From: Prevotellaceae bacterium
GTDB taxonomy: Bacteria > Bacteroidota > Bacteroidia > Bacteroidales > UBA932
Direction of reading: 5' to 3'
Assembly (NCBI GenBank): GCA_031280885.1
Contig: JAITGD010000113.1
Coordinates: 1-39,019 of the forward strand
Length of the DNA stretch: 39,019 nt
In this document: positions 7,899 through 38,569 of the stretch, in pieces
Layout: the number at the start of each line of letters is the position of its first letter
How positions within the stretch are numbered: position 1 is the stretch's first letter
The notes under the pieces: model-generated
The model's database searches: none
Seen by the model: only the letters and a program-made list of their open reading frames with translations
What the model was told of the DNA's origin: nothing
Position numbers and translations under genes: made by a program

Positions 7899-7920
7899 GC
7901 AGAAAGCGTGTTCTATGCTG

Positions 7921-8039: not shown

Positions 8040-8048
8040 ATTTGTCAT

Positions 8049-8196: not shown

Positions 8197-8201
8197 CGAA
8201 T

Positions 8202-8224
8202 GATTCAGGATTGTAAGAACCAAG
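8202..8224 (+). repeat. Dispersed 23-bp repeat, copy 1
   Basis: The 23-bp element starts GATTCAGGATT and ends AAGAACCAAG. It matches 28402-28424 (opposite strand, inside the GH110 gene) at 21 of 23 positions. A 3' portion also occurs at 7826-7841. All copies are followed within about 25 bp by a CTGCGCAG- or TTACGCAG-like box. Confidence 0.75.
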
Positions 8225-8249
8225 AGCCAGGACTGCTGCGCAGGCTTCA

Positions 8250-8277
8250 GTAGAGACGGGGCGCGCCCCGTCTCTAC
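8250..8277. repeat. 28-bp perfect GC-rich palindrome
   Basis: GTAGAGACGGGGCG is followed immediately by its exact reverse complement, giving a 28-bp perfect palindrome centred on GCGC. It could extrude as a cruciform or, in RNA, form a very stable hairpin that ends transcripts entering from either side. It lies between GH95 and the DUF4998 lipoprotein gene, so it could separate GH95 from susCD transcription. Confidence 0.8.
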
Positions 8278-8323
8278 CAGGCCAGAAAAAATCTGCGTGC
8301 ATCCGTAAAATCTGCGTCATCCG

Positions 8324-8393
8324 CGTGCTAAAAGACTATCAAACCAGCCTGCGTAGCCAATTCATAATTCATAATTCATAATTCATAATTCAT
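8324..8393. repeat. Dispersed repeat copy plus five AATTCAT heptamers ending in a stop codon
   Basis: Bases 8324-8357 repeat 2144-2177 (30 of 34 identical) and end in CCTGCGTAGC. Five perfect AATTCAT units follow at 8359-8393, and the stop codon of the DUF4998 gene (8393-8395) begins in the last one. Upstream, 8289-8323 carries ATCTGCGTGCATCCG and ATCTGCGTCATCCGCG, two related copies of another short repeat. Together with the preceding entries this accounts for the whole 584-bp gap; I find no gene in it. Confidence 0.75.
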
Positions 8394-9490: not shown

Positions 9491-9511
9491 TGTTTTATGT
9501 TTTAAATTGTG

Positions 9512-10705: not shown

Positions 10706-10738
10706 TATTTCTATGTTTTTCATTATTTCTATGTTTTA
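10703..10738. repeat. 18-bp tandem duplication over the start codon of the DUF5000 gene
   Basis: CATTATTTCTATGTTTTT (10703-10720) is repeated at 10721-10738 with one final base changed. On the minus strand each unit carries an ATG in the same frame, so the gene has two equivalent initiation regions 18 bp apart. Confidence 0.8.
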
Positions 10739-10756
10739 CTGTTGATTTTTCATTTG

Positions 10757-12664: not shown

Positions 12665-12676
12665 CTTTAATACGGT

Positions 12677-16126: not shown

Positions 16127-16186
16127 AAATTTGTCCGGTTTTTTAGTTGTAAAAATTTTATTAATTAATTTATTTAAAAAACTTTG

Positions 16187-16215
16187 GCAGGGAAATGTTT
16201 GCAGCATTTCTCTGC
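16187..16215 (-). terminator. Hairpin between fecR and susC, candidate terminator or attenuator
   Basis: GCAGGGAAATG (16187-16197) pairs with CATTTCTCTGC (16205-16215) over 11 bp with one G.T pair. In the minus direction it follows the fecR stop codon by 4 bp and is followed by CAAAGTTTTTT and more T-rich sequence. It could end fecR transcription or lower readthrough into susC. Confidence 0.55.
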
Positions 16216-16219
16216 TTTT

Positions 16220-17140
16220 TTACTTTATAAAGACTGTATCTGTTTTCATATCATATTCAAATAAAAGTCCTTCTACCATCACTTTCAGGATGCTTATCGG
16301 CGTATCGTCCAAGCTGAAAGTGCCGGTGATTCTTCTCTTGTCGGTAAGCATAGAGCCTTCGACGACAAATTTTATTCCGAAAGCCCGTTCCATCCGCTTG
16401 AACGCTTCCTCGACGGTGCTTTGCCTGAACAGCAGTTTGCCGTCCTTCCATGCGATATACTGTTCGCAGTTTACTTCGTTGATTACAGCGCTTTGGTTCT
16501 CCATATCAAAAGATAATTGCTGACCTGCGCGAAGTGTCGGCCCTTGAATGTCCGATTGATTTTTGTTGAATTTCACCGAGCCTTCCACCAGAGTAGTTAC
16601 TATTTCCTGCTCGTCGGGATACGCTCTGAGATTGAATTTTGTGCCAAGTACCCGCACGCTGCTCCGGCAAACATTAACTGTGAATGGACGCTCGGCGTCG
16701 TGCCGCACTTCAAAATACGCTTCTCCGATGAGTGTGATTTCGCGGGTTTTGCTTCCGAAATCATCCGTATAACTCAGTTGGCTGCCGACATTCAGCCATA
16801 CCGAACTTCCATCGGGCAAGGTAAACTGCTGACGTCCATTCGAGGCTACAAGTTCGTGAGTCGCCGTTGTTTTGCTTTCCGTCTGATGCCGAATATTCCT
16901 ATAACTCACCGTCAGCAGCAGAGCCAGAGTAGCCGCCACAGCAGCGTATTTCCACAAGAGCAAGCGCGGTTTTTTCTTTTCCGACGATTGCTGAATCCTT
17001 TCCCAGAGGCGACGAAATGAGTTTTCGGCGGAATATTTCGCCGAAGGGCCTTTGGTGCGGTATCTTATTCTGTCCAAAAGTTCTGACTCCTCTGTCGAAG
17101 CCTTGTTGTCTTCAAATTTTTTATCCTTAACGTCGTTCAT
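16220..17140 (-). CDS. FecR family anti-sigma factor
   Basis: This 306-residue inner-membrane protein has a short cytoplasmic N-terminal region (1-about 63), one transmembrane segment (WKYAAVAATLALLLTVSY, about 64-81) and a periplasmic FecR domain. The FecR domain contains RQQFTLPDGSSVWLNVGSQLSY, REITLIGEAYFEVRHDAERPF and VRVLGTKFNLRAY, and a DUF4974 domain follows (RITGTFSLDDTPISILKVMV). FecR holds an ECF sigma factor inactive until SusC, through its STN domain, reports substrate. In the usual arrangement a sigma gene lies directly upstream, but here the upstream neighbour is the divergent DUF4491 gene 100 bp away. Either the sigma factor is encoded elsewhere or the module is incomplete. Confidence 0.94.
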   Translation of the reverse strand: MNDVKDKKFEDNKASTEESELLDRIRYRTKGPSAKYSAENSFRRLWERIQQSSEKKKPRLLLWKYAAVAATLALLLTVSYRNIRHQTESKTTATHELVASNGRQQFTLPDGSSVWLNVGSQLSYTDDFGSKTREITLIGEAYFEVRHDAERPFTVNVCRSSVRVLGTKFNLRAYPDEQEIVTTLVEGSVKFNKNQSDIQGPTLRAGQQLSFDMENQSAVINEVNCEQYIAWKDGKLLFRQSTVEEAFKRMERAFGIKFVVEGSMLTDKRRITGTFSLDDTPISILKVMVEGLLFEYDMKTDTVFIK

Positions 17141-17209
17141 AAAATCACGTCTATATCTATAAAGACCGACAAAAATGAAAAATCACCTAAAAAGGGTTCA
17201 AAAAAAGTG

Positions 17210-17217
17210 TAACTTTG
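17210..17217 (+). promoter_or_regulatory. Bacteroides-type -7 promoter element for DUF4491 and the sulfatase
   Basis: TAACTTTG followed by CAC matches the TAnnTTTG consensus exactly, 23 bp before the DUF4491 ATG. It lies in the divergent intergenic region with fecR. No good -33 TTTG is visible at the right distance. Confidence 0.55.
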
Positions 17218-17240
17218 CACGAGTTTATTAACACGAAATA

Positions 17241-17555
17241 ATGACAGATTTTATAGACGATTACAATTTAAACGGCTTACTGATTGGAGTATTGACTTTC
17301 CTGATTATCGGATTATTTCATCCTCTGGTAATAAAGGCTGAGTATCATTTAGGTGTAAAATCGTGGTGGATTTTTCTCTGTTTTGGTCTTATCAGCGTCT
17401 TTGCTTCGGTGTTAGTTAGGAATTTGCTGGCGTCCATACTGTTGGGCGTTGTAGCTTTTTCTTCGTTTTGGAGTATTCTTGAAGTTTTTCAGCAGGAAAA
17501 AAGAGTGAAAAAAGGTTGGTTTCCAAAGAATCCAAAGAAACATAAACGTCAATAA
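17241..17555 (+). CDS. DUF4491 family small membrane protein
   Basis: This 104-residue protein has three hydrophobic segments (about 10-30, 41-60, 64-80) and a basic tail. The phrases LTFLIIGLFHPLVIKAEYHLG, ILLGVVAFSSFWSILEVFQQEKRVKKGWFPKNPK and the overall size fit DUF4491, a conserved Bacteroidetes membrane family of unknown function. It has its own TAnnTTTG promoter and is followed by the sulfatase gene after 17 bp, so the two are likely co-transcribed. Nothing in the sequence points to an enzymatic role. Confidence 0.82.
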   Translation: MTDFIDDYNLNGLLIGVLTFLIIGLFHPLVIKAEYHLGVKSWWIFLCFGLISVFASVLVRNLLASILLGVVAFSSFWSILEVFQQEKRVKKGWFPKNPKKHKRQ

Positions 17556-17572
17556 AACAAAAGAATAAAGAG

Positions 17573-19021
17573 ATGAACATACAAAAAATTTTCACAACAG
17601 CGCTTTGTGGCACATCCACTTGTTTGTGCTTCGGACAAGATGCGCAATCGACTGAGCGGCCGAATATTATCTACATCATGGCCGACGATCTGGGATATGG
17701 CGATTTGGGCTGTTACGGTCAATCATTGATCAAAACCCCCAATATCGACCGTCTATCGAGTGAAGGCATGAGATTTACACAGTTTTATGCCGGATGTACG
17801 GTAAGCGCTCCGTCCCGCTCGTCGCTGGTTACAGGTTTGCACACAGGACACACGCCGATTCGCGGGAACAAAGATTTTCAAGGAGGCGACTATCCTCAGC
17901 CGGAAAATACCTATACCATAGGCAAAATGCTGCAAGCCGGCGGATATGCTACCGGATGTTTCGGCAAATGGGGACTGGGAGCGCCTCATACCGAAGGAGC
18001 GCCTCATAAACAAGGCTTTGACCGTTTCTTTGGATACAACAGTCAGGGGCTGGCACACCATTATTATCCTTATTATCTGTGGAATAATCAGGATACGCTT
18101 TGCTTGTCGGAAAACAAAGGCTTCAAAAAAGGCGTTTACGCGCCGGACACGATTCAGGCCGAAGCCATTCGCTTTATTCGCAACCATAAAGATCGACCGT
18201 TTTTTGCTTACCTCACTTACGTCATTCCTCACGCCGAGCTGGTTAATCCCGACGACAGCCTTGCCGCTATGTACAAGGGAAAGTTTCCGGAAACGCCTTA
18301 CAAAGGAGTGGACGATGGCGACATGTATCGAAAAGGCCCGTATGAAAGTTCACAACAGCCGAAAGCCGATTTTGCCGCCATGGTTGCCCGTCTGGACGCC
18401 TATGTGGGCGATATTTACAAGCTGTTGAAAGAGTTGAAATTAGACAAAAATACGATCATCGTCTTCACCAGCGACAACGGCCCGCATGTGGAAGGCGGCG
18501 CCGATCCGCATTTCTTTAAGAGTTACGGAGCTTTGCGCGGCGTGAAACGCGATCTCTACGAAGGCGGAATCCGCGTGCCTTTCGTTGTATGGTATCCGAA
18601 AAATGTAAAAGCCGGAACGGAAAGTCATCATGTAGCCACATTCTGGGACGTGATGCCAACTTTGGCAGCGCTGACCGGCACACAAGCGGCCGAAAATACC
18701 GACGGAATATCCTTCCTCCCTACGCTGACCGGACAGGGTAATCAAGTGCAACACAAATATTTGTACTGGGAATTTCACGAGCAAGGCGGGAAAGCGGCTG
18801 TAAGAAAAGGCGATTGGAAAGCCATTCTGTTCGACGCCGGCAATGCGGAAAAAAGACGTATGGAACTCTACGAGCTTTCAAACGACCTGCACGAAGACCA
18901 TAATGTAGCGCAACAGCATCCACAAATTGCTGCCGAAATGCTGCAATTAATGAAAGAAGCGCATGTCGATTCCGAAGCTTTTCCGTTCATAAAGACCTCA
19001 TTATTTGAACTTGGGAAATAA
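17573..19021 (+). CDS. Serine-type family S1 sulfatase, secreted
   Basis: This 482-residue sulfatase has a signal peptide (about 1-22) and the alkaline-phosphatase-like fold. Metal ligands are in MADDLGYGD (D38, D39). The active-site motif is S78-A-P-S-R82 within CTVSAPSRSSLVTG, so the formylglycine precursor is Ser, not Cys, and needs an anaerobic radical-SAM maturase (anSME type), which is not in this window. FTSDNGPH supplies the late Asp/Asn ligands, and HTGHTPIRGN and GKWGLG are typical of S1 subfamilies active on sulfated carbohydrates. It probably removes sulfate from glycans in the periplasm. It starts the plus-strand side opposite the fecR/SusCD locus, so it may serve the same substrate. 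The sulfated sugar and position cannot be told. Confidence 0.94.
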   Translation: MNIQKIFTTALCGTSTCLCFGQDAQSTERPNIIYIMADDLGYGDLGCYGQSLIKTPNIDRLSSEGMRFTQFYAGCTVSAPSRSSLVTGLHTGHTPIRGNKDFQGGDYPQPENTYTIGKMLQAGGYATGCFGKWGLGAPHTEGAPHKQGFDRFFGYNSQGLAHHYYPYYLWNNQDTLCLSENKGFKKGVYAPDTIQAEAIRFIRNHKDRPFFAYLTYVIPHAELVNPDDSLAAMYKGKFPETPYKGVDDGDMYRKGPYESSQQPKADFAAMVARLDAYVGDIYKLLKELKLDKNTIIVFTSDNGPHVEGGADPHFFKSYGALRGVKRDLYEGGIRVPFVVWYPKNVKAGTESHHVATFWDVMPTLAALTGTQAAENTDGISFLPTLTGQGNQVQHKYLYWEFHEQGGKAAVRKGDWKAILFDAGNAEKRRMELYELSNDLHEDHNVAQQHPQIAAEMLQLMKEAHVDSEAFPFIKTSLFELGK

Positions 19022-26330: not shown

Positions 26331-28295
26331 ATGATTTTTATATTTATTCTACTCCTTTCGCCGGCCTTGTTTATCGTTCCGGCACACAAAAAAGGCAAAT
26401 TTGCCCTGATTCTTTTAGCAGCTGGAATCGTACAGACTTTCAGCATAATAACCCGTTTAGAAGCGGCGGCGCCCATTGACCTCAGCTATGATTTGGGAAT
26501 TATCAACCTCCGGCTATATATCGACGAACTTTCGGCGCTCTTTCTCGCACTGCTTAATGTAGTGGCAATTACAGCTTTATGGTATTCTAACGAATATCTC
26601 AAAACTTATATCAAAACAAAATCGGAAAGCGAACTTTCGCTGCACTTTTTGGCGTATATCTGGCTGTATGTGTCGATGACAGCGGTGATAACATTCCGCG
26701 ACACAGCGAGTTTCCTTCTCGCATGGGAATTAATGACCGGCGCCTCCTTTGTGCTTGTAGTTTTCGAGGGAGAAAAGCCCGACAAACTAAAAGCCGCCAT
26801 ACATTACTTGGTTCAAATGCATGTATGTCTTTTTCTGTTGATTGCCGGCTTCGCCATAGCCGAAAGCGCCAGCGACAAAACAGGCTTTGAGGCAGTAGCC
26901 GAATATTTTTCGACACGAAAGAATTTCCCTCTGTTTCTGATATTTCTGCTTGGATTTGGCTTCAAAGCAGGCTTCGTTCCGATGCACACCTGGCTGCCGG
27001 AGGTACATCCCACAGCTTCGGGAAACGTCAGTGGATTTATGTCCGGCGCAATCATAAAAATGGGTATCTACGGATTAATCAGAATAATAAGTTGCATTAA
27101 GACCGACCTCTTTCTCGTCGGCGCTACCCTGCTGTCACTTTCCTGTGTAACAGGTCTCTACGGAATAGCCATGGCCGCTGTACAGAAAGACATAAAAAAA
27201 CTGCTGGCCTATTCGAGTATCGAAAACATAGGAATCATAGGAATCGCTCTGAGCATCGGCATCTTAGGCGAATATTGGGATAATCCCGCTCTGAGCCTCG
27301 CCGGATACGCCGGAGCCTTGCTTCACACGTTTAATCACGCCTGTTTCAAGTCGATGCTCTTTTTTAGTGCAGGCTCGCTTTGCAAAGCCACGCACACACA
27401 ACGGATGGACAAAATGGGCGGAGCGGCTAAGGAAATGCCCTACACTGCGGCATTTTTCCTTCTCGGATCCGGAGCAATCTGCGCCTTGCCGCCACTCAGC
27501 GGCTTTGTGTCAGAGTTTCTTATATACAAAGGACTGTTTTCCAGCATCGGCGACGCGGGTTCAGTGCGCGCTTTTTTTCTGATGATAATAGCGCTGATAA
27601 TGGTCGTCATAGGAGGTTTGTCGATTTTGACCTTTACCAAGGCTTTCGGGATTCCCTTTCTTGGCCTCCCGCGCAGCCCGCAATCTTCGGGACTTTCGGA
27701 AAGCAAAGGTCTGTGGACGCCGCTGTTAATACCGGCTTTCTGCATAATTTTTGTCGGATTTGCGCCTTTTTTTGCTTTTGAACTGATTGCCCGCATCTCG
27801 TTCTGCGTGTCGATGGCCGACTCGCCAACGATTATCGCAATGAACGAATGTTCGACTAATCTGCGCAGCTTGAGCCTTGTATTCATGCTCTTTGCAGGGC
27901 TTATTGTCGGTATTCATCTCCTTCGCAGCAAACGTTTGGCAAAACGTCGCGTGGACTCATCGCCCACCTGGGGATGCGGATACACAGCGCCAAAGGCCAA
28001 AATGCAATATAGCTCTTCTTCATTTGTTAGTGATTTTGAACATTTAGCCAATCCCGTAACTCGCTATCGACGCGAAATAGAGCCTATTGCAGAAACTGAA
28101 ATTTTCCCCGACGAACGCAAATTCAAGGGAAAATCCGAAGATATAGTACATTCGCAGGTAAATATCCTGCAATCACGCATACAAAAAATACTCTCGCATC
28201 TGGCTATCTTCCAGACAGGTAGAATACAACACTATATTTCCTTTGCTCTCATTTTTATGGTGATTATCTTTGTGCTTAGCTGGATTATGCAATAG
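26331..28295 (+). CDS. HyfB/HycC-like proton-conducting membrane subunit (NuoL family)
   Basis: This 654-residue polytopic protein belongs to the NuoL/M/N-Mrp superfamily and is most like hydrogenase-4 component B. Conserved channel residues are visible: E133 in LLAWELMTGASF, K212 in GFGFKAGFVPMHTWLPEVHPTASG, K243 in GAIIKMGIYGL, and HTFNHACFKSMLFFSAGSL. The C-terminal TWGCGYTAPKAKMQYSSSSF is a HyfB hallmark. In energy-converting hydrogenase-type complexes such a subunit works with HyfC, E and F and hydrophilic subunits, none of which follow: the next gene is convergent GH110. It either belongs to a complex encoded elsewhere or is left over from a rearrangement that also removed nqrDEF. No frameshift is visible. 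Confidence 0.85.
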   Translation: MIFIFILLLSPALFIVPAHKKGKFALILLAAGIVQTFSIITRLEAAAPIDLSYDLGIINLRLYIDELSALFLALLNVVAITALWYSNEYLKTYIKTKSESELSLHFLAYIWLYVSMTAVITFRDTASFLLAWELMTGASFVLVVFEGEKPDKLKAAIHYLVQMHVCLFLLIAGFAIAESASDKTGFEAVAEYFSTRKNFPLFLIFLLGFGFKAGFVPMHTWLPEVHPTASGNVSGFMSGAIIKMGIYGLIRIISCIKTDLFLVGATLLSLSCVTGLYGIAMAAVQKDIKKLLAYSSIENIGIIGIALSIGILGEYWDNPALSLAGYAGALLHTFNHACFKSMLFFSAGSLCKATHTQRMDKMGGAAKEMPYTAAFFLLGSGAICALPPLSGFVSEFLIYKGLFSSIGDAGSVRAFFLMIIALIMVVIGGLSILTFTKAFGIPFLGLPRSPQSSGLSESKGLWTPLLIPAFCIIFVGFAPFFAFELIARISFCVSMADSPTIIAMNECSTNLRSLSLVFMLFAGLIVGIHLLRSKRLAKRRVDSSPTWGCGYTAPKAKMQYSSSSFVSDFEHLANPVTRYRREIEPIAETEIFPDERKFKGKSEDIVHSQVNILQSRIQKILSHLAIFQTGRIQHYISFALIFMVIIFVLSWIMQ

Positions 28296-28372: not shown

Positions 28373-28424
28373 CTGCGTAACCAATTAATCATTAATCATT
28401 ACTTGGTTCTTGAAATCCTGAATC
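28373..28424 (-). repeat. Composite dispersed repeat overlapping the 3' end of the GH110 gene
   Basis: On the minus strand this reads the 23-bp dispersed repeat (28424-28402, 21/23 identical to 8202-8224), then AATGATT heptamers, then GGTTACGCAG, the variant of the CTGCGTAGC box. The first two parts lie in the GH110 reading frame and encode its last nine or so residues and stop. Confidence 0.75.
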
Positions 28425-30143
28425 TCTCTTACAATGTTCGATTTTAAACGCCGGAAGACTATTTTTTTCATCCTCTGTTTTTTGCCATGTACTTTTTTCG
28501 ATGAGGTTGTTTTCAAAAATCAGGCCATCTACAAATTTTGCTTTGATTACCTGTGTTTCAAGCGTTTTGAATGTATTGTTTTCGATTCGGATATTTCGGT
28601 GAACCTGATGTTTTGGCGATTCTTCATGCACTTCGGGTTCGATAGATATGGCGTAGCTGTTACCGAGGATGTTATATCCGCAGGCATCGAATAGGTTTCC
28701 TCTGATTATGGCGTCGTTTACCGCTCCGGATTCGTACCAACTTCCTGCATCGCAAGCAATTAGAATACCATACATTCCGGTGCGATAAAACACATTGTTT
28801 TCTATCCTGATACTGCGAGGAGTAGTAACTAAAAGTCCGCGAGTACATGTCATTTCGAAGCGATTATTGCACACCTGAAGCGAAGGCGTCCATGTGAGAT
28901 TTTCTACGCAATAACCGGTGCTTACCTCCTTAGGAAGAGGCGATTCCAGCTCAATCAACATCTCGCGTTCCGAAACAAGTCGGGCTGTTTTTACCTTCGA
29001 TTTGCCCTTAGTCAAAAGCGCGGCAGAGTTTACAAAGCCAACAGTGTCGTTTTCATAAAAGGCTGCAAATCCGTAGGTTTGACCGTGCATAAATCGCACT
29101 TTGATCCGTGTAGGAGTTTGAATTTCTGTAATTTTCAAATAAGTTCCGTGTACGTTTACCGGATCATCGTGCAGACCTTTAAATCGGCATGAATCAATCA
29201 ATATCTTGCCTTTGCATCCCGAAAAGTGCATGCCGTCAGCAAAAGCTGCGATTGTCCGCCCCCTCGACGGCGTGATATTTACTCTGCGATATGTCAGATT
29301 TTCTGAGAATTGCGAGATTATTCCAAGACCGTGCATATAGTGCATATTTACGCCGTAGAGACGTATATTTTTTGATAGATTGACGAAAACGCCGACATGG
29401 TCGCGGTAAGGATCTCGTACTGTGAGTGTTTGTCCGGCCGCGTAGCCCGAATTTCTGAAATCGCCATCTATCCGCAATTTGAAGGGTTCAAGCTCAGTAA
29501 CAGATCCTTCGAGAATAGGATTCCAGCCTCTGTATTTTGCCGTTCCCTCTATCGTATCGGTCATAATTACATGATAACGAGGGATATTATAGCCTTCGCC
29601 ATACCAAAATAATTTACTGTCGATAATAGCGTATTTTGAATCCGGATGCACCGAAGCAATTAGATAATCAGAATTCACCTCAATCATAGAGAGTTCGCTC
29701 ATGCTCGGACGTTCAAAATCCACACTCAGATTGCGCATTTCGATGTTTTCGCAATGGTCAATGCCGATTGTAATCATCTTTCCATGAAAAACAAAGATAG
29801 AACCATTTCCCTCGACAGTCAAATTTTTGACGCCTTCGAATAAAAGTCCGATGTTTTTGATTTTCGATGGACATTCCTCTTCGGATGAAGTGTTTGAGAT
29901 AAAATACTCTCGTTTTTCTGTTTTTTCGTGCCAAAAATCGTATCTTCCTTTGGGAAACACAAGCGTGGCTCCGTTATTTTCGGATTTACAGCGCTCTATG
30001 GCTTTTTTTACCCCTTCGGTAGCGTCGATAAAAGAATTTGGAGCTACGCCGAAATCCCGCACATCTATCATCTTCTGCGACTGCGCGATTGATACCGCTC
30101 CTGCCGCAGCAAGAGCAAAAATCAGTTTAAAAATTGTATTCAT
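28392..30143 (-). CDS. GH110 family alpha-1,3-galactosidase, secreted
   Basis: GH110 enzymes release alpha-1,3-linked galactose, as in blood group B or linear alpha-Gal structures. The 583-residue protein has a signal peptide (about 1-22) and a right-handed parallel beta-helix. It matches characterised Bacteroides members in LVFPKGRYDFWHEKTEKREYFISNTS, LTVEGNGSIFVFHGKM, IEMRNLSVDFERPSMSE and GYAAGQTLTVRDPYRDHVGVF. The likely catalytic acids are D303 (FADGMHFSGC) and D326-D327 (GLHDDPVNVHG); the spacing of 23 equals that of the known catalytic Asp residues as I recall them. It is the last gene of the five-gene operon starting at 36768. The C-terminal tail SGFQEPSND is encoded by an intergenic repeat. 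Confidence 0.92.
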   Translation of the reverse strand: MNTIFKLIFALAAAGAVSIAQSQKMIDVRDFGVAPNSFIDATEGVKKAIERCKSENNGATLVFPKGRYDFWHEKTEKREYFISNTSSEEECPSKIKNIGLLFEGVKNLTVEGNGSIFVFHGKMITIGIDHCENIEMRNLSVDFERPSMSELSMIEVNSDYLIASVHPDSKYAIIDSKLFWYGEGYNIPRYHVIMTDTIEGTAKYRGWNPILEGSVTELEPFKLRIDGDFRNSGYAAGQTLTVRDPYRDHVGVFVNLSKNIRLYGVNMHYMHGLGIISQFSENLTYRRVNITPSRGRTIAAFADGMHFSGCKGKILIDSCRFKGLHDDPVNVHGTYLKITEIQTPTRIKVRFMHGQTYGFAAFYENDTVGFVNSAALLTKGKSKVKTARLVSEREMLIELESPLPKEVSTGYCVENLTWTPSLQVCNNRFEMTCTRGLLVTTPRSIRIENNVFYRTGMYGILIACDAGSWYESGAVNDAIIRGNLFDACGYNILGNSYAISIEPEVHEESPKHQVHRNIRIENNTFKTLETQVIKAKFVDGLIFENNLIEKSTWQKTEDEKNSLPAFKIEHCKRDSGFQEPSND

Positions 30144-30175
30144 ATTTTAAAAATTTTTTTCTATTTGGATACTGC

Positions 30176-30829
30176 TTAAACACAGTCCTCGCAAAAGCCT
30201 TTTCGTCTCAGCAAATCGACGCCGCCACAGTAGCAGAGATAGCGCCAAAAAACAAAAGCCGAGAATTGTTTCGCCGCAGGATCAGATATTTTACCACTAT
30301 TTATATTTAATAGATTGGCCATAAATAACATGATGCTAAAATCTCCGGCGGCTTCCATGTCGCGGGCTATATCGCGAAACAGCGGCTTGTCGGCGCCTTG
30401 TTCCAAAGCCCGTCGCAGGTATCCGCCGCGATTGAACGGACAGGAATAGTACCAGAGAGATACCTCGGTATTCATAATATCTTTCTGTTTGACGTAAAAG
30501 AAACAATAATTCTCATCCTCAAACAGTTTGCTGTTGATTTCCGACAGTTTTTTTCTGTCAATTTGAAGAATATACTGCGATTCAGGCTTTCCGCCGTTAA
30601 CCTGAAGGCAACGCAAAAAAGCCTTGTGCGATATAGTGTCTGTTTTCGCAGGGAAATTCATTCGTATGGTTTTATCGAAAAATTCACCCATTTCTTCCAG
30701 CACAGCTTGCCTTTCGGGAGTAAACTGCGTATAAGTCGTTTCGACCTGTCCTACTGCATGATGCGTATAAACTAACATCAATATGCAGAAGATAAAGATA
30801 CTTGATTTTTTAATTTTTGTGGAACACAT
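30176..30829 (-). CDS. Secreted protein of unknown function
   Basis: I do not recognise this 217-residue protein. It has a basic N-terminus and a hydrophobic signal segment (SSIFIFCILMLVYTHHAVGQ, about 9-28), so it is probably exported. The mature part has the motifs FTPERQAVLEEMGEFFDKTIRMNFP, NYCFFYVKQKDIMN, SLWYYSCPFNRGGYLRRALEQG and a Cys-rich end (RYLCYCGGVDLLRRKGFCEDC), which could form disulfides or bind metal. It lies between the O-antigen-ligase-like gene (27 bp) and GH110 (32 bp) in one operon. It may be an accessory of either; no enzymatic motif is apparent. Confidence 0.75.
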   Translation of the reverse strand: MCSTKIKKSSIFIFCILMLVYTHHAVGQVETTYTQFTPERQAVLEEMGEFFDKTIRMNFPAKTDTISHKAFLRCLQVNGGKPESQYILQIDRKKLSEINSKLFEDENYCFFYVKQKDIMNTEVSLWYYSCPFNRGGYLRRALEQGADKPLFRDIARDMEAAGDFSIMLFMANLLNINSGKISDPAAKQFSAFVFWRYLCYCGGVDLLRRKGFCEDCV

Positions 30830-30856
30830 TTTTTTAATTTTTAATTTTTAATTTTT

Positions 30857-32527
30857 TTAACCTATTTGTGTATTTTCTAATTCTTGCATCATTCGTTCCT
30901 GCGGCACGATTGCTGGCTGATTGTCTGATTTTTGTGGCTTCGGAGCCTCTTCAATCACCCGGTACATTTCGTGTTTAATGCTTTGGATAGTTGCTGAAGG
31001 GATTTTTATTTTTTTGCGGAGAATGATTTTTGCCAAATTCAGCGCACGAGCCTTGTCGCCACGCGCATTATACAGTTTTACAAGACGATACAGAGGCATA
31101 AACTTTACCGGACACATTGCCGCCGCTTTTCGATAATGCTGTTCAGCTTCCTCATACTGACGTAGTTGCTCGTAATTATCAGCCATCAACATTTGAAGAT
31201 CGTAATCAGCCCAAAGACGTTCACATTTTCTGCCGATTTCCAAACTGCGCTCGTAGAATTTTGCCACGTTCAGTTCCGCAGTATAATTATAAAGGAATAA
31301 TTCATTGTCGGACAGAGCTGTGTGCAGTTTTTCGTATTCGGGCAACATTTGTTCGGTTTTCCCCGCCAGCGATTGATTTGCTATCCTGCACCAAAGTATC
31401 TCATTATTCATACGTTGATACATCGTAAAGCCGAAATATATAATCGCAGGAATTGCCAATAATTTTGCCGACAATAATATTTTTTTTGGAATTTTTATTG
31501 AATATTTCGCCTTGTAAATAATTATGATTATGTTGAAAATCACCATAATCCACACAAAAGGATAAGTCAGCGGATACGAAAAAGCTGCAAAAACAGCAAT
31601 CGAGAGCAAAGAAAAAACCGCAGAACGAACAAGCGGCTCCTGCCTGCCTCGAAGAAAAGAGCGCCAAAGAAACCGGCAAAAGACGAGAAAAACAAGCAGT
31701 CCGACAAGTCCGTAATTGATTATCAGCGAAATATATTCGTTGAAAGGGCGGTTCACATTGTCGGCCAGCATTGCGTATTCGCTGTCGGGATTTTGAGTGA
31801 AATAATCCGCTTGAAAGTTCATATAATTGGCTTTGAATCCGCCATATCCATGTCCGAACAAGGGTTTTTCCTTGACCATTTCCCACGAGCAGCGCCAAAT
31901 CAGCAGCCGTCCGTCGGCAGAATCTTTTTTCAGGAAATATGAAGTCGAAAATAACAAACAGACTGTAAAAAACATAATAAGCTTGATTTTCCGACGTTTG
32001 GGATACTCATAAAGCGAAAAAACAGTAGATACGATTATCAAGCTAATCATCCCCGATCGCGAGCCTGAAAGGAATATGGCGCTTGCGATTATCGTGGCTG
32101 TAATGGCTGTAAACCAGCTTTGTCCGAGACGATTTATCACAAGCACATAGAAGATTGTCGGAAATACGGCGCAGAGGCAAGCGGCAAATCCGGCAGGATT
32201 GTCGAAACTGCCTGTAATTCGGAAACTTCCGATAGAGGGCAAAATTTTTGCGTATTGAAGGATTCCGTACACGGCCTGCGCCGTGCATAACACGCTGACA
32301 ATAAAGCAGAAAAAAGCCGCCATCGATGGTTTTTTCTCTTTGTCGGCGTTATGCAAAAGCGAAAACACAAGACAAACCGCCATCAAAACTATGCCGCAAA
32401 ATATTGTACTATACCATTTTGGCGCAAGGTGGACGTCCACAAAAGCGCCGGAACTCAGAAATAAACTTCCCGCGCCGAGCAAAAAAAGCAGTATGTATCG
32501 AATCGCTTGCAAGATGGATTTGTTCAT
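30857..32527 (-). CDS. O-antigen ligase (Wzy_C) family membrane protein with C-terminal TPRs
   Basis: This 556-residue protein has about ten membrane segments (1-370). It carries the Wzy_C signature region ITGSFDNPAGFAACLCAVFP, LSGSRSGMISLII, and the periplasmic loop DGRLLIWRCSWEMVKEKPLFGHGYGGFKANY. The family includes WaaL O-antigen ligases and PglL/PglO protein O-oligosaccharyltransferases, which move a lipid-linked glycan onto lipid A or protein in the periplasm. The C-terminal 170 residues hold TPR helices (YDLQMLMADNYEQLRQYEEAEQHYRKAAAMCPV). It starts 7 bp behind the glutaminase-like gene. Association with secreted protein-modifying folds favours a protein or cell-surface glycan target over LPS, but this is inference. 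Confidence 0.85.
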   Translation of the reverse strand: MNKSILQAIRYILLFLLGAGSLFLSSGAFVDVHLAPKWYSTIFCGIVLMAVCLVFSLLHNADKEKKPSMAAFFCFIVSVLCTAQAVYGILQYAKILPSIGSFRITGSFDNPAGFAACLCAVFPTIFYVLVINRLGQSWFTAITATIIASAIFLSGSRSGMISLIIVSTVFSLYEYPKRRKIKLIMFFTVCLLFSTSYFLKKDSADGRLLIWRCSWEMVKEKPLFGHGYGGFKANYMNFQADYFTQNPDSEYAMLADNVNRPFNEYISLIINYGLVGLLVFLVFCRFLWRSFLRGRQEPLVRSAVFSLLSIAVFAAFSYPLTYPFVWIMVIFNIIIIIYKAKYSIKIPKKILLSAKLLAIPAIIYFGFTMYQRMNNEILWCRIANQSLAGKTEQMLPEYEKLHTALSDNELFLYNYTAELNVAKFYERSLEIGRKCERLWADYDLQMLMADNYEQLRQYEEAEQHYRKAAAMCPVKFMPLYRLVKLYNARGDKARALNLAKIILRKKIKIPSATIQSIKHEMYRVIEEAPKPQKSDNQPAIVPQERMMQELENTQIG

Positions 32528-32534
32528 GCTGCTT

Positions 32535-34781
32535 TTAGTTAAGTTTTAGTTTGTTTTTCAGATAACTGTAAGAACTTATTCCCCGACTTGCAGCATCGGA
32601 GAAAGCCGGATTTCGCCGGTTTTCCACTAAGAGACGATACCATCGACTAATCATCTGCCGGTATGGTCGTATGTAATCTGCATTATCGTCGAACGAGGCG
32701 AGGGTAGCCAGCAGGAACATCATATTGCTTGCAGTTTCGACAGGCGATTGCGTGGAACTAATTTGTCCGTTCAACAAAGGATAGTCGCCAATATTGGATG
32801 GCGGGAAATCTTTGCCCCACAAATCGCTTTCGCCGTATTTCAGCAGAGGTTCGAGTTGCGCTTTCAGCAGTTTGCTGTTGCAGGCAAGAAAGAGCGAAGA
32901 AGAGCGCAGTATGTCCGACGCTCCGTTACGCGATAAAAGCAGTAAACCGTCGTGCTTGTCAAAGACTGTTTTGAAAGCAGACACTGTTTCGCGGTAATCG
33001 AAGGCTTCAGGCATGGACTGCAATTGCCGATTTAGGGCTTCGCATCGCTTTATCACTGCGGAATAATCTCGACGAGCAGTGGAGAAAATCTGTTCTATCG
33101 TCTTGTCGTCGTTTCGGTTCCAATATGGCGGCAAGTTGTCGCCGAAATACTGTACGGCGTATCTCTCATCGTATCCTGCCATGATGAAACCTGAGGCTTT
33201 CGCTGTTTTTCCGAATGTGCGAGTCAGACAGATACGGGACTTTTCTCTTGTTGCGGCAAGGGTATTTGTCGTGTCGGTACACAGAAAAAAATATCCGCCC
33301 GAGTTTTCTCTGTTTGTTTCGAATATTTTTTGTTCGGATTTTCCGGTCTTTATAAACCATAAATCATTTTTTGCATATATTTCGGCGGAATATGGTTCGG
33401 CAGCGCTTATCGGTCCGGGCGCTGTTTCAAAATTGATTTCCACTTCGTGCGTTTCGCCGTCGAGCGAGCTTATTTCGTATGAGATGTAATTAAGCGGACG
33501 GGAAAACACCTCAATGTCGTTAGGCAACAAAGGCGCGGTAAAGTCCAGTTTTAGTTCGACTTGCCCGCACTCGAACCGGTAATGCGTTTGAGTAGCCTGC
33601 ACGTTTACCGATGTTTGATGTGCAATATCATCGCTACGGACATCGAAATCAGCCAAAGCTCCGCCGCCCAAATTCCGGCAATGAGCCGCCACGCACAATT
33701 TATTTCCCTTGATTGTCGTTTTTATGTTTTCCGGAATTTCTATTCTTCGGTTTTTGCTCCATTCAAAACCTGTTTTCACAAGTTGTATTCCGTTTATGTA
33801 CAAGTCGAACACGTCATCGTGCGAATATTCCAGCACGAGGTTTTTTTTCTTTGCCTCCGGTTCGAGTTGTATCTCTCTGCGCAGCCATATTTCCGGCGTA
33901 TTCCAGACTGTATTCACTTGATAATCGACAGGCGTTCCGAAAGGCGCTTTTCCTGTATTCCATGTTGTGTCGTTGAAATCAGTCTGTTCCCACTTGTCGG
34001 ATGGCGGCGAAAAAGTATATTTGCACTGTCTGTCTTCGCACGGTTCGTCCACGATGTAAATGCCGAAATCGAGCAAAGCTTCGCCCTGCAAATTCTTGCC
34101 ATGTGCCGCCAGAATAATTTCTTCGTTATCTCGAAAGCTTGTTCTCACATCTTCGGGGATTTCTATCAAACGATTTTCGCCCCATTTAAATCCTGTTTTT
34201 ATGATGTGTACTCCGTTTATATACAGCTCGAAAATATCGTCGTGCGAGTATTTGAGATACCATTTGCTGTCGGAAGGATTGTCTTTCGTTAGCCTGATTT
34301 TCCTGCGTACCCAAATTGAGGGGGAGGTCCATATTGTTCTGATATGCGGGTAGTATCGTGAAAGATATGTGGGACTTCCGAAGGGCGCTCGACCGGAATC
34401 CCATTCGCTGTCGTCGAAATCGTGTTTTTGCCAGTTTCCCGATGGTTGGACGAAAGTGTATTTCGCTTGCCATTCTTCGTTGTACGACATGCCGGCTACG
34501 ATTATGTCGGGACGTTTTTCCGTTCCCATAAAGCGATATGCCTGTCCGTCCACCCGAAGGATGCCTGTCAGTGCATGTTCCTTTCCGTCGGCGTCCTGTA
34601 GGCGGGAACTATACAGCGTCGGCGAAACCGAACGAAGATTGATTTGTTCATCTATCGTGATAAGCGGATAAACTTCTTGCTTCGTGTCTTCCCATGCAAC
34701 AGTCCGAATGTCGGCAGTTTCGTCGCAGGATACGAGCGCCGTCAAAATCAACAGAAATAAATATGTTCTAATTTTCATCAT
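32535..34781 (-). CDS. Glutaminase-A-like lipoprotein (DUF4964/5127/4965) with doubled beta-sandwich and shortened catalytic domain
   Basis: This 748-residue lipoprotein has lipobox LVSC (Cys19). A DUF4964 segment (VYPLITIDEQINLRSVSPTLY, RVDGQAYRFMG) is followed by two copies of a galactose-binding-like sandwich. The copies share FDDSEWDSGRAPFG / FNDTTWNTGKAPFG and YSHDDIFELYINGVHIIKTGF / YSHDDVFDLYINGIQLVKTGF, offset by about 141 residues. A DUF5127 part follows (VQATQTHYRFECGQVELKLDFTAP to YAVQYFGDNLPPYWNR). The C-terminal DUF4965-like (alpha/alpha)6 part ends soon after GDYPLLNGQ and SPVETASNMMFL. The usual relatives I know have one sandwich and about 200 more C-terminal residues with a DDFAGH-type motif, missing here, so catalysis is doubtful and a binding role likely. 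It is 1 bp downstream of the transglutaminase gene. Confidence 0.82.
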   Translation of the reverse strand: MMKIRTYLFLLILTALVSCDETADIRTVAWEDTKQEVYPLITIDEQINLRSVSPTLYSSRLQDADGKEHALTGILRVDGQAYRFMGTEKRPDIIVAGMSYNEEWQAKYTFVQPSGNWQKHDFDDSEWDSGRAPFGSPTYLSRYYPHIRTIWTSPSIWVRRKIRLTKDNPSDSKWYLKYSHDDIFELYINGVHIIKTGFKWGENRLIEIPEDVRTSFRDNEEIILAAHGKNLQGEALLDFGIYIVDEPCEDRQCKYTFSPPSDKWEQTDFNDTTWNTGKAPFGTPVDYQVNTVWNTPEIWLRREIQLEPEAKKKNLVLEYSHDDVFDLYINGIQLVKTGFEWSKNRRIEIPENIKTTIKGNKLCVAAHCRNLGGGALADFDVRSDDIAHQTSVNVQATQTHYRFECGQVELKLDFTAPLLPNDIEVFSRPLNYISYEISSLDGETHEVEINFETAPGPISAAEPYSAEIYAKNDLWFIKTGKSEQKIFETNRENSGGYFFLCTDTTNTLAATREKSRICLTRTFGKTAKASGFIMAGYDERYAVQYFGDNLPPYWNRNDDKTIEQIFSTARRDYSAVIKRCEALNRQLQSMPEAFDYRETVSAFKTVFDKHDGLLLLSRNGASDILRSSSLFLACNSKLLKAQLEPLLKYGESDLWGKDFPPSNIGDYPLLNGQISSTQSPVETASNMMFLLATLASFDDNADYIRPYRQMISRWYRLLVENRRNPAFSDAASRGISSYSYLKNKLKLN

Positions 34782-34782
34782 C

Positions 34783-36768
34783 TTATCTCCAGATTTGTTG
34801 TCCGTTTTCGTATGTAAATATTCGCTCCTGCAAGCCTCGTGTGTGATTTTTCAGATACAGGAGGGCGTTTCGGGGAACGTTCCGGTACAATAGCGAGTCG
34901 GAATTGCTTTCGACTATGCCCAATGATTTCCATTCTGTGTCCATATAAAACAATTCGAAGGTGTCGCCCGGACGGATGTAATTGTCGCGGTTGCGAGGCG
35001 TATAGACGACAGTGAAAAGATTTCGCGACTGTCCTAAATCCAGTCCCGCCCAGCCGCCCCATCCATCTTTGTAATCGAACGACGTCCATGTTTTTCCGTC
35101 GAACACGTTGGTATATTCGTGCGGATCGGCAGGATTGAACGAACCGGGTGTGCCGACGACTTTCCCCGTCAGAGGGAGGGTATCCTGTTCCGTTTCGTAA
35201 AATGCCGCTTCCGATATGTTGCAGTAGCTTCCTTCCGCTCCGTAGAAACGCACATATCTATATGGACGTTTCGTTTTCAGCTTCGCTTTTACGAGCAATC
35301 TGTTTGGTATGATATTGATTACATGAAGCGTATCTTTGTGAATAAATCCGGCGTCGTTGCTTCCTTCGAAAACGCCGCCGCATATTCGGGAACGAAACAG
35401 GATTTCGCCTTCGATGCTGAATTTGGAGTGGAGTATTACGTCCTGTACGCTGTCTTGCCCTGCATAAAATGTTAGCCGGTTCGTTAAAGGGTCGATACGA
35501 AAAGGATTCGATAGGTAAACGGGACGATTGTTTTCCCAGCCTGCAATCCGCCAAATGTCGCCTTTTTGTACGTTACGAAAACTGAGTCCCTCTTTCGTAA
35601 GCGGCGCCCAGTCCACAGGCGTCCAATCGCGATGCTGACTGTTGCAGAGGTAGGCGATTTTTGTGCTTTGTTTTCGTTTGTAAAGTTGCTCGGCGGAAAT
35701 ATGGATTTGGCGGGCACAGTATTTGGCATAATGAGAAGTAACGTCCACAAACCTTGGCTGTTCAAACAATTCAGGAAAGGACGCCTCTCCAACTTGCATG
35801 GCTTTTTTCAACGAACGGTTTTGTCCGAAAGTATAACGATAGACTTTGGTTTTTGCATCTTCTCTGATTTTATTGCTGCGCACCGGGGTAACTGTTTCCG
35901 GAAAATCCTGACAGTACAATTCTCTGTTTTTGTCATGGAAAGAAATCCAGAAATGCCCAACGTTGTCGTTTCCTCTGACAGGGACGACATCAATATGACA
36001 GGGAATGCCCAAAGCCCTGCATACATATACGGCATAATCGGTTAGTTCCCTGCAACTGCCACTTTTATACCGTGCAATCGAAGCTCCGACGTGTGGCAAA
36101 TCTGCCGGAGACACGGTGGTGAAACGAATTTCTTTCCAGTTTGTAATATGACGCATCAGAAGATATACTGCTTGAATTGGGTCTTCCATCACGTCCGCGC
36201 TTTCGTACCTGAGCGCTTCCAGCATTGGGTTGTATTCTCTGTAAAATTTTTCTCTCCAGTATTCCGGTTTTTCGTCGCCGATGCGATAGGGAAGAATGTA
36301 TTCGCAAAAATCGTCGAACGACACGTTTTTGCCCCATGGTTGCTCGTGCCAAACTTTGAAAGCCCAATCAATATTGTTGCAGAGATATGCGGAATCGAGC
36401 GTCAAGATGTCCTCTTTCGTGCGCAGAGAATCGAGGCGAAAAGCGCCGTAGCGACTGATGACTGAATCTAAAAGTTCTTCCGGACTATGGTTTGTTCCGA
36501 TGTTTTCCCGAAGCAAACGGAAATAACTTAGATAATTATTCAGCAGATTGCCTTCGTAATAGACGTAACCCGGCATATTGACAATCAGAAATTCCGCAGC
36601 TTTTAACTTTAAACTGTCGGCAGGGTTTTTGGAATAGCGCTTTAAAACTTTTTCCAGTTCGCAACGATTATCTCCTGCCTGCTTCAATACATTTTCTATC
36701 TCCGACGAATAAGGTTTTGTGCATGAGATACATAAAAACAAAGCCGAAATATAATAGAATCTATACAT
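34783..36768 (-). CDS. Transglutaminase-like lipoprotein with C-terminal discoidin-like modules
   Basis: This 661-residue lipoprotein has lipobox CISC (Cys16). A helical N-terminal region (about 20-200) is followed by a transglutaminase/papain-like core with Cys239 (YKSGSCRELTDYAVYVCRALGIPCHID), His272 (NVGHFWISF) and Asp288 (YCQDFPE), a complete triad in the usual order. The C-terminal 260 residues are beta-rich, with RPYRYVRFYGAEGSYCNISEAAFYE, TNVFDGKTWTSFDY and GGWAGLDLGQSRNLF, resembling discoidin-type binding modules. Bacterial members act as peptidases or amide-bond transferases on proteins or peptidoglycan. It is the first gene of the operon running to GH110, 84 bp after the preceding gene with a hairpin in the gap. 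Substrate unknown. Confidence 0.85.
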   Translation of the reverse strand: MYRFYYISALFLCISCTKPYSSEIENVLKQAGDNRCELEKVLKRYSKNPADSLKLKAAEFLIVNMPGYVYYEGNLLNNYLSYFRLLRENIGTNHSPEELLDSVISRYGAFRLDSLRTKEDILTLDSAYLCNNIDWAFKVWHEQPWGKNVSFDDFCEYILPYRIGDEKPEYWREKFYREYNPMLEALRYESADVMEDPIQAVYLLMRHITNWKEIRFTTVSPADLPHVGASIARYKSGSCRELTDYAVYVCRALGIPCHIDVVPVRGNDNVGHFWISFHDKNRELYCQDFPETVTPVRSNKIREDAKTKVYRYTFGQNRSLKKAMQVGEASFPELFEQPRFVDVTSHYAKYCARQIHISAEQLYKRKQSTKIAYLCNSQHRDWTPVDWAPLTKEGLSFRNVQKGDIWRIAGWENNRPVYLSNPFRIDPLTNRLTFYAGQDSVQDVILHSKFSIEGEILFRSRICGGVFEGSNDAGFIHKDTLHVINIIPNRLLVKAKLKTKRPYRYVRFYGAEGSYCNISEAAFYETEQDTLPLTGKVVGTPGSFNPADPHEYTNVFDGKTWTSFDYKDGWGGWAGLDLGQSRNLFTVVYTPRNRDNYIRPGDTFELFYMDTEWKSLGIVESNSDSLLYRNVPRNALLYLKNHTRGLQERIFTYENGQQIWR

Positions 36769-36852: not shown

Positions 36853-37530
36853 TTATCTCGTAGCTTGATAGACGGGGATTTTACACCCACATTTTAAATA
36901 CACTACCACCGGAATACCGCCAGGCAGGACCTCGTTATTGTCGTTCAAAATAAATTCTTTAAATATTTCTAAATAATCTAATTTTGCTAAACCTGCAAAC
37001 AATATCACCGACGATAAGGGAGAATAGAAATCGTATTGTACTGATTTGTGTGCATATCCCGACAGTTCGCCTTTGGCGAGTTCGGCGTCTATACATTTCA
37101 AATATGTTTCTTTTTCAGGTTTGATATTCCGAATAAAATCCATATATTTTTGCCATAGAAACTTGCGGTATTCCTGCCATGCTTCTTTAGTAGGATAATA
37201 AAGCTGTTTAACAAAGTCTTTCATATCCACGTTGATATCTGTTCCGATTGTGTCTTGCTGTATTTCTGCATCCAGCGAAAAACCGGTTAGTGTTTTAAAA
37301 CTATGACTACAGTCGCCATTATAGTCTTTTTCAGGCGTTACATTTTTGAACTTGTTATGTTCTATACAGAACTTATAAAAATATTCAACAGCCTCATATT
37401 TGATTTTCAAGTTCAGCGCTTTGAATATGTTTTGCATATTCGTACAACAAGCTGAATCCTCTGCCGGTTGTGCATAAACAAATACAGCTGGGAGAAAACA
37501 TAAATAAAATACAATAATTATTTTTTTCAT
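36853..37530 (-). CDS. Secreted protein of unknown function, Cys-rich
   Basis: I do not recognise this 225-residue protein. It has a clear signal peptide (MKKIIIVFYLCFLPAVFVYAQ, cleavage about residue 20). The mature region has SACCTNMQNIFKALNLKIKYEAVEYFYKFCIEHNKF, a YYPTKEAWQEYRKFLWQKYMDFIRNIKP helix and a C-terminal VVVYLKCGCKIPVYQ. Several Cys (CC, CxC) may form disulfides. It is flanked by hairpin terminators on both sides (36805-36838 and 37551-37577), so it is probably a monocistronic unit. It shares secretion, size and Cys content with the 30.2-30.8-kb protein, but I see no convincing alignment. Confidence 0.75.
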   Translation of the reverse strand: MKKIIIVFYLCFLPAVFVYAQPAEDSACCTNMQNIFKALNLKIKYEAVEYFYKFCIEHNKFKNVTPEKDYNGDCSHSFKTLTGFSLDAEIQQDTIGTDINVDMKDFVKQLYYPTKEAWQEYRKFLWQKYMDFIRNIKPEKETYLKCIDAELAKGELSGYAHKSVQYDFYSPLSSVILFAGLAKLDYLEIFKEFILNDNNEVLPGGIPVVVYLKCGCKIPVYQATR

Positions 37531-37550
37531 ATACTTAAAATTAGTAAAAA

Positions 37551-37577
37551 CCTGACAGATTTTGAATGTCTGTCAGG
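37551..37577 (-). terminator. Intrinsic terminator of the papain-like lipoprotein gene
   Basis: CCTGACAGA (37551-37559) and TCTGTCAGG (37569-37577) form a perfect 9-bp stem. In the minus direction it is followed by TTTTTACTAATTTT. It lies 15 bp after the stop codon at 37593, a textbook position. Confidence 0.85.
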
Positions 37578-37592: not shown

Positions 37593-38528
37593 TTACTTTC
37601 TATAATATCTAATATCATCTGTTATATAGTTACTGAAAAAACCACCACAGTTAGGATTGTAAGTATAAATTCCTAATTGCCCGCATTTTGCCTCAAGTTT
37701 CGTTACTTGTCCATTTACAACCTCTTTAACAATAGCACTATGATGAGGAATAATCCCGTAATTAGAAATATATCTATATGATACCCATCTGTCACCGACT
37801 TTTGGCGTTGATTCTCGTGAATAGCCTGAGCCATTAATATCGGGATAATTATTCCATAGAGGATGATTTGGCTCATAATAAGGGTCATTCGGATTAGGCG
37901 CCCCCCATACATAAGTATGACAGTTGTAAGCGTTAGGATTGTCAACACCATTTATTTTGCGATAGGTTGCTGTGCCGGGTACCGACACACTATCACAAGA
38001 ATTGCTTGTCTCATACCCACTCTTCAAACGAACTTGCGTCCATTCAACCGCATGCCTTTCTATCAATGTATATATTTGTTTGGGGGCATAATATTCGCCT
38101 TCTTCTAATATTTGTCCGGTCAAACTGTAATAGTTAGCATGGGCATATTCATTACTATAGAAAGAGAACACTTTGACGCCTCCCGTAAAACTGTTTTTCA
38201 CATACGCAATCTGCAATTTTCTGACAGAATCCTTCCCTGCCGAATTTTTGCCTTTGTATATTTCAATTGAAACATGTAAAGTCTTGCCGTCCGGCATGGT
38301 TTTTATCTCGGCTTTATCCCAGTCGGGTTCCTGTGTGCCGACAAAATCACTTGCTGTCTCTTGCGATTTAAACCAGTTTTTAAAATCGGCAATTTCTAAA
38401 TCCGAAGGATCTTGATAGCTTTCAATAGCAGTGTCCAGCACATCATACTTACTGCAGCCTCCTACAATGATTCCCAGAGAAATCATACAGGCCAAAATCA
38501 TGAAACCAAAAGGTTTCGTTATGTTCAT
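37593..38528 (-). CDS. Lipoprotein with papain/NlpC-like Cys-His arrangement
   Basis: From the ATG at 38528 the protein has 311 residues with a signal segment and lipobox IVGGC (Cys25). An in-frame ATG at 38555 would add a polar MITTNKTNK and arises from an 18-bp-period duplication of the leader, so I prefer 38528. After a beta-rich N-terminal part, residues 195-310 show NPNAYNCHTYVWGAPNP (Cys203), KVGDRWVSYRYIS, IIPHHSAIVKEV (His262/263) and LEAKCGQLGIYTYNP. A Cys at a helix start followed by a buried His on a strand is the pattern of NlpC/P60, CHAP and related papain-fold amidases, but I cannot assign a family. It may act on peptides or peptidoglycan in the envelope. Its own terminator follows. 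Confidence 0.8.
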   Translation of the reverse strand: MNITKPFGFMILACMISLGIIVGGCSKYDVLDTAIESYQDPSDLEIADFKNWFKSQETASDFVGTQEPDWDKAEIKTMPDGKTLHVSIEIYKGKNSAGKDSVRKLQIAYVKNSFTGGVKVFSFYSNEYAHANYYSLTGQILEEGEYYAPKQIYTLIERHAVEWTQVRLKSGYETSNSCDSVSVPGTATYRKINGVDNPNAYNCHTYVWGAPNPNDPYYEPNHPLWNNYPDINGSGYSRESTPKVGDRWVSYRYISNYGIIPHHSAIVKEVVNGQVTKLEAKCGQLGIYTYNPNCGGFFSNYITDDIRYYRK

Positions 38529-38540
38529 TTTGTTTGTTTT

Positions 38541-38569
38541 ATTTGTTGTTATCATTTTATTTGTTGTTA
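38541..38569. repeat. 11-bp direct repeat with 18-bp period in the lipoprotein leader
   Basis: ATTTGTTGTTA occurs at 38541-38551 and 38559-38569. On the minus strand the duplicated A-rich leader carries an extra in-frame ATG at 38555, much as in the DUF5000 gene at 10703-10738. Confidence 0.65.

Follow-up and report, generated by a model that had tools for sequence, protein, structure and literature searches.

A locus on contig JAITGD010000113.1 of a Prevotellaceae genome (GCA_031280885.1) raises the question of what five adjoining genes do together: those for a transglutaminase-like lipoprotein (TG), a GtaA-like lipoprotein (Gta), an O-antigen-ligase-like membrane protein with Wzy_C and TPR domains (Wzy_C-TPR, or Wzy), a secreted protein termed B217, and a GH110 alpha-1,3-galactosidase. 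The window analysed is the entire contig of 39,019 nucleotides; it belongs to a metagenome-assembled genome of 2.66 Mb in 212 contigs, which is 89% complete. A preliminary description of this DNA placed the five genes on the minus strand with gaps of 1, 7, 27 and 32 bp, and both coordinates and gaps are confirmed. It knew of no named system with this combination, and no paper on the combination was found in the open-access literature, to which all literature searches reported here refer. The operon appears to be one version of an unnamed locus, widespread in Bacteroidota, that would mature or attach small secreted proteins, a reading to which we assign a probability of roughly 0.45. The locus class, in the form proposed, has about an even chance of being real.

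The gene neighbourhoods of relatives provide the first line of evidence. Genes were scored as linked when on the same strand and within 6 kb, and the TG loci counted were the 39 with 6 kb or more of sequence on each side. A Wzy_C-TPR gene is linked to TG in 28 of these, and Gta in 11, all from gut Bacteroides. In an independent search for Wzy among 80 relatives, TG was also found on 23 of 40 Wzy contigs, against about 1.6 expected from rough, assumed contig and genome sizes. TG is present in 22 of the 80 relatives and the Wzy_C-TPR type, which is patchy, in 16; a scan of named genomes confirmed at least 580 TG relatives across Bacteroidota, and some TG loci are on plasmid records. Among the same 80 relatives Gta was found on 16 contigs and GH110 on 12, none of which also carries TG or Wzy. 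Over 80 genomes and 113 TG loci, GH110 is linked to TG/Wzy in this window only, and a B217-type gene is linked only here and in a locus of Bacteroides finegoldii. The five-gene set is a local arrangement, consisting of the conserved TG/Wzy pair, Gta, which joins the pair in Bacteroides, and two extras. Thus, of the five genes that the preliminary description took as one system, TG, Wzy and Gta are not scattered in relatives, whereas GH110 and the gene for the unknown protein have no conserved linkage.

Two gene orders are seen in gut Bacteroides (labels such as L032 and G008 are our own, for loci and genomes). One is TG-Gta-LepB-Wzy-NVEALA/propeller, with a Gta of 626–641 aa (L075, L076, L079, L080, L081, L083 and L100; some are fragmentary). 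The other is TG...Wzy...Gta, with a Gta of 924–963 aa (L071, L073, L074, L077, L078, L082 and the B. finegoldii locus L032). One genome, G008, has 16 TG matches, several with an adjacent Wzy_C-TPR gene and with differing small secreted neighbours, an unusual expansion. Separate short frames that resemble the N-terminal part of TG also occur (L033:9914–10483; G004:C147, G004:C174 and G001:C91). The best of these are 59–66% identical to residues 3–72 of the window TG, vs 28–37% for whole TGs of the same genus, and this high identity could stem from recombination through the 5′ end of the TG gene.

TG and Wzy_C-TPR form a fixed core, and the cargo differs from locus to locus. One set of neighbours in relatives consists of fulvocin-C-related proteins (NF033852), TlpA and DUF1573 proteins. 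The other has NVEALA peptides (PF14055), 6-bladed propellers (DUF5128), a redoxin-like protein and the S26 signal peptidase LepB; the profiles behind the LepB and NVEALA labels may recruit too widely. Neighbours were labelled on the same strand only, which keeps an unrelated opposite-strand family of 239 aa (L071, L077, L078 and L082) out of the fulvocin label. As TG and Wzy usually lie beside genes for small secreted peptides or proteins, a signal peptidase, thioredoxin-like proteins and propellers, the indication is that the cell matures secreted proteins of its own. Capture of a host glycoprotein, which the preliminary description had suggested, finds no support in these neighbourhoods.

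A hydrophobic anchor and a LSDLALANVEALA-like segment are common to the NVEALA precursors and are followed by a variable tail; in the aligned rows inspected, the tails have 2–7 Cys residues, mostly an even number. The EALA of these precursors conforms to the AxA pattern recognised by signal peptidase I, and the LepB of the locus could therefore be the NVEALA processing enzyme. Arrays in which an NVEALA peptide gene is followed by a 6-bladed beta-propeller gene look like peptide-partner pairs (L089, L092, L108 and others), and L089 has four such pairs ahead of TG.

A purpose can be added to the maturation reading if the loci make antagonistic peptides, with the propeller (or w225 or B217 in the window) as immunity protein and TG/Wzy activating or anchoring the peptide. 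The fixed precursor segment with its variable, Cys-containing tail would suit such a role, as would the repeated peptide-propeller pairs, four of them in L089, the annotation of relatives as related to the bacteriocin fulvocin C, and the multi-copy and plasmid-borne loci, G008 with its 16 TG matches among them. However, 'fulvocin-related' is an annotation and no activity is known, the candidates in the window (217–320 aa) are above the usual peptide size, and there are loci that have no propeller. We regard antagonism as unlikely, though as a serious contender.

The two core genes differ in how they relate to the cargo. In a tree of 68 Wzy rows, covering 13 fulvocin-type and 25 NVEALA-type loci, the cargo class changes 3 times, vs a mean of 11.0 and a minimum of 7 changes in 200 shuffles, although the shuffles leave relatedness in and the figure thus ignores kinship. 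The TG tree (56 loci) has 8 changes, where shuffles average 11.0 with a minimum of 8, and does not follow cargo class. It is suggestive, then, that the Wzy branch tracks cargo class. The window Wzy groups with those of L035, L053 and L116, i.e. with the fulvocin/TlpA-linked branch (SH-aLRT 99), and the window TG with gut-Bacteroides TGs and that of L069. As they fall in differing tree groups, the TG and Wzy of the operon seem to have different histories.

The Wzy protein has Pfam matches to Wzy_C (E 9e-21) and TPR, but the active-site region departs from that of known ligases. Phe262-Asn263-Glu264 replaces the His-Asn motif of WaaL and of oligosaccharyltransferase (OTase), and Phe262 aligns with the His of AHND in WaaL (7tpg) and of SHN in the OTase 9rmk. 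The replacement is family-wide: at the position of Phe262 the Wzy_C-TPR alignment has Phe in 62 of 68 sequences and His in none. Asn263 and Arg207 are present in 68/68, R157 in 67/68 and Glu264 in 65/68. The window Wzy shares the Wzy_C region and a conserved Arg with PglS/PglL and WaaL, but these have the catalytic His, which it lacks, and it has in addition a C-terminal TPR. In PglS, the H324A mutant has been used as an inactive control (PMC12800693). RodA uses an Asp in a manner likened to that of the WaaL His (PMC10449877), and an acidic replacement in Wzy_C-TPR is therefore conceivable. The preliminary description's glycan-ligase-type membrane protein thus retains its Wzy_C domain and Arg, but has Phe in place of the catalytic His of WaaL/PglS. 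Transfer of a glycan by this Wzy is doubtful, though worth considering.

The general O-glycosylation of Bacteroidota (LFG) would likewise need a periplasmic OTase or ligase, and according to a 2025 review both enzymes are undiscovered in the phylum (PMC12871550). Wzy_C-TPR is unlikely to be the general OTase, because its occurrence is patchy and it is tied to cargo loci.

The preliminary description also offered the idea of an operon that assembles a protein-linked glycan on the cell surface, with GH110 to trim it. GH110 has both GLAA-B barrels (I and II) over the Pfam cut-off and matches GH110 chains in the PDB with E values to 4e-94. Its sequence is intact, with HDDPVNVHGT aligned to HDDPINVHGT of 8yk3; we take HDDP to be the acidic active-site motif. 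An intact GH110, a Wzy_C domain and a CBM62-like region on TG, all in one gene run, are what this idea would call for. Yet GH110 is unlinked elsewhere, Pfam reveals neither a glycosyltransferase nor a flippase gene in the operon, and the Wzy catalytic His is lost. Glycan building is improbable, and GH110 as a conserved part of the system was rejected, since no other contig with TG or Wzy carries it. From its distribution, GH110 is probably a passenger of the locus.

For TG, Pfam reports Transglut_core and a weak F5/8C match. Cys239 and His272 are invariant in 34 aligned sequences, and Asp260 is conserved in at least 90%. An AlphaFold model (predicted local distance difference test, pLDDT, 91.4) has a transglutaminase/papain fold; in comparisons by VIA-align over Foldseek candidates it matches factor XIII with Z 9.9 over 190 residues (root-mean-square deviation, rmsd, 4.2). 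Residues 455–527 match the galactose-binding-type module CBM62 (Z 6.9, 73 residues, rmsd 2.3, 32% identity), and a profile match to CBM62 2yb7 (E 5e-37) takes in both halves in swapped order, as either one permuted CBM62 domain or two domains might. Of the two glutamine- or amide-acting folds seen in the preliminary description, that of TG is borne out by the Cys/His pair and the resemblance to factor XIII; the second, in Gta, is a half-domain remnant from a family with a member that lacks glutaminase activity. Even so, joining of proteins by TG seems unlikely, somewhat more so than the glycan transfer considered above for Wzy.

The TG fold also matches PNGase (Z 8.4). This might point to a nutrient-acquisition locus that captures or cuts a host or diet glycoprotein, with TG acting as PNGase or peptidase and GH110 as exo-galactosidase, and a SusCD/GH95/sulfatase locus is found elsewhere in the window. 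But the five genes include neither SusC nor SusD, peptide and secretion genes rather than glycoside hydrolases flank TG/Wzy in relatives, and an inner-membrane Wzy_C-TPR protein is left without a role. Nutrient acquisition is very improbable.

Returning to maturation of secreted proteins, a more specific scheme can be drawn. Cargo would cross the inner membrane by Sec, and on the periplasmic side the polytopic Wzy_C protein may bind it through its TPR domain. Wzy, with its conserved arginines and with Glu264 near the place of the WaaL His, would transfer an undecaprenyl-linked saccharide or related group to the cargo. The TG lipoprotein, by way of its Cys-His papain-type site and CBM62-like region, would then bind the modified cargo and join or cut it at the outer membrane. 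In the window, by position, the cargo slot might be filled by B217 and w225, and possibly w320 (w225 and w320 are encoded upstream of TG); in this scheme Gta is taken as a relic with a binding role, and GH110 as a hitch-hiker. In short, a branch-specialised Wzy_C-TPR that lacks the WaaL His would attach a group to variable secreted proteins, a galactose-binding TG lipoprotein would fix them on the surface, and the window would have a larger-cargo version. As a whole this scheme is tentative and, in our estimation, rather unlikely to be right in all its parts.

Several observations weigh against the maturation reading. The window has no NVEALA, recognised fulvocin-type, TlpA, DUF1573 or LepB gene, and B217, w225 and w320 are cast as cargo from their position; as the peptide, LepB, TlpA and DUF1573 genes are missing, the cargo assignment could be wrong for the window copy while holding for the class. 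An NVEALA search of the window's genome gave no match. A whole-genome fulvocin search gave none there either, but it gave none in controls. Without the WaaL-type His, Wzy may not be a glycan transferase, and TG lacks a conserved Asp about 16 residues past His272, the usual place of the third triad residue. Four of the 39 TG loci have no listed partner, and the kinship left in the Wzy shuffles belongs here too. Only 464 bp of contig remain upstream of w320, and further genes of the locus may thus be missing.

The closest known loci are themselves unnamed. Those with NVEALA, 6-bladed propeller, LepB, O-antigen ligase and transglutaminase genes in Bacteroides and Phocaeicola (L033, L079 and L081) share the TG and Wzy_C-TPR core, and the Bacteroides versions have Gta just after TG, as in the window; the window differs in that NVEALA peptide, propeller and LepB genes are all absent and the Wzy falls on the other tree branch. 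An expression table for B. thetaiotaomicron lists BT0662 (O-antigen ligase), BT0664 (propeller) and BT0667 (lepB) near one another (PMC10434189), and by published annotation BT0662–BT0667 appears similar to NVEALA-type loci. Loci with fulvocin-C-related, TlpA, DUF1573, O-antigen ligase and TG genes (B. finegoldii L032, L035 and L053) have the closest Wzy proteins, with 59–61% for L035 and 54–57% for L053. B. finegoldii L032 has TG (49%), Gta, Wzy and a B217 relative in common with the window, but the window lacks the fulvocin-type, TlpA and DUF1573 genes, its Gta is truncated and GH110 is added. Searches for papers on NVEALA, and on fulvocin C together with Bacteroides, found nothing. We rate the window operon as a variant, with an unusual gene set, of a widespread locus class that is annotated but unstudied.

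Gta consists of DUF4964, an extra jelly-roll-like stretch, a partial DUF5127 (1–116 of 229) and a partial GtaA_6_Hairpin (12–153 of 343). Relative to the GtaA family it has the N-terminal domains and the start of the hairpin, but not the second halves of the last two domains; an unlinked paralogue in the same genome has hairpin positions 1–342 of 343. It aligns over its full length to the Bacteroides operon form of about 960 aa (32–37% identity). Two short Bacteroides operon forms end at hairpin positions 151 and 190 (L079:11941–13821; L081:11899–13824); the window Gta and these short forms, strongly diverged in sequence, all break off within one region of the hairpin (151–190 of 343). In the Gta tree the window row is on a long branch (1.31) and its placement is unsure. 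A full-length member of the GtaA family had no detectable glutaminase activity and a weak beta-galactosidase activity of 0.85 U/mg (PMC9668830). In view of this assay and the two half-missing domains, a glutaminase function of Gta was rejected as likely.

B217 has no Pfam family match. Its relative in the B. finegoldii locus (L032:18641–19297) is 26% identical (E 7e-17), with a weak match also to L032:16278–17060, and there is no convincing relative in 393 genomes of the order. The w320 protein is 58% identical to a protein of L050, a locus of the same genus, where it is encoded beside Wzy and TG and adjoins a w225 relative; w320 was not found in the other searched genomes of the order. Its motif NCHTYVW...HHSAIV could be a papain-type site; an AlphaFold model built from two sequences (pLDDT 41) was not used. 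Phage and defence origins were considered for B217, w225 and w320: PHROGs gave nothing meaningful (weak matches, two for B217 and two for Wzy, at E ~0.05) and PADLOC nothing. Nor has w225 any similarity to fulvocin.

Table 1. Features of the locus in the 39,019-nucleotide window
Feature	Position	Strand	Length (aa)	Description	Basis
TG	34783..36768	-	661	Transglutaminase-like lipoprotein, Cys239/His272, CBM62-like galactose-binding-type C-terminal region	
Gta	32535..34781	-	748	GtaA-like lipoprotein, truncated	
Wzy_C-TPR	30857..32527	-	556	O-antigen-ligase-like membrane protein, C-terminal TPR	
B217	30176..30829	-	217	Secreted, fold unknown; candidate cargo or cargo partner	
GH110	28392..30143	-	583	Alpha-1,3-galactosidase with HDDP motif; probable passenger	
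w225	36853..37530	-		Secreted protein, function unknown; 84 bp upstream of TG	
w320	37593..38555	-		Lipoprotein with NCHxYVW...HSAIV, possible Cys/His papain-like site	
Palindrome	37540..37577	-		CCTGACAGA...TCTGTCAGG then TTTTT; possible terminator in the w320/w225 gap	Sequence and scan

From their spacing, the five genes, transcribed from TG through Gta, Wzy_C-TPR and B217 to GH110, are probably one co-transcribed operon. The gene 3′ of GH110 (26331–28295) is on the opposite strand. Where the transcript begins upstream is uncertain and w320 is perhaps a separate unit, because the palindrome and its five T residues separate w320 from w225; matches in the terminator scan overall were no more numerous than expected from shuffles. 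The gaps between the minus-strand genes yielded no Bacteroides-type -7/-33 promoter. An insertion of the operon beside the 26331–28295 gene was considered: same-genus contigs with room on the downstream side do not have it, but the neighbouring genes there differ too. Elsewhere in the window, positions 5409–19021 hold a carbohydrate-use locus with GH95, a DUF4998/F5-8C protein, SusD, a SusC-like receptor, a FecR regulator and a sulfatase.

The significance of these loci extends beyond one genome. Many of the TG relatives in Bacteroidota, at least 580 in number, are paired with Wzy_C-TPR and they include those of human gut Bacteroides and Phocaeicola, and a functional study of them was not found. 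A family-wide loss of the WaaL-type His would be informative on how this enzyme superfamily works. With neither the OTase nor the ligase of O-glycosylation in Bacteroidota discovered, according to the 2025 review (PMC12871550), the substrate of Wzy_C-TPR is worth knowing, although this is probably not the general enzyme. The co-variation of Wzy branch and cargo class makes a direct, testable prediction of enzyme-substrate pairing, and the BT0662–BT0667 region of B. thetaiotaomicron is available as a genetic test system.

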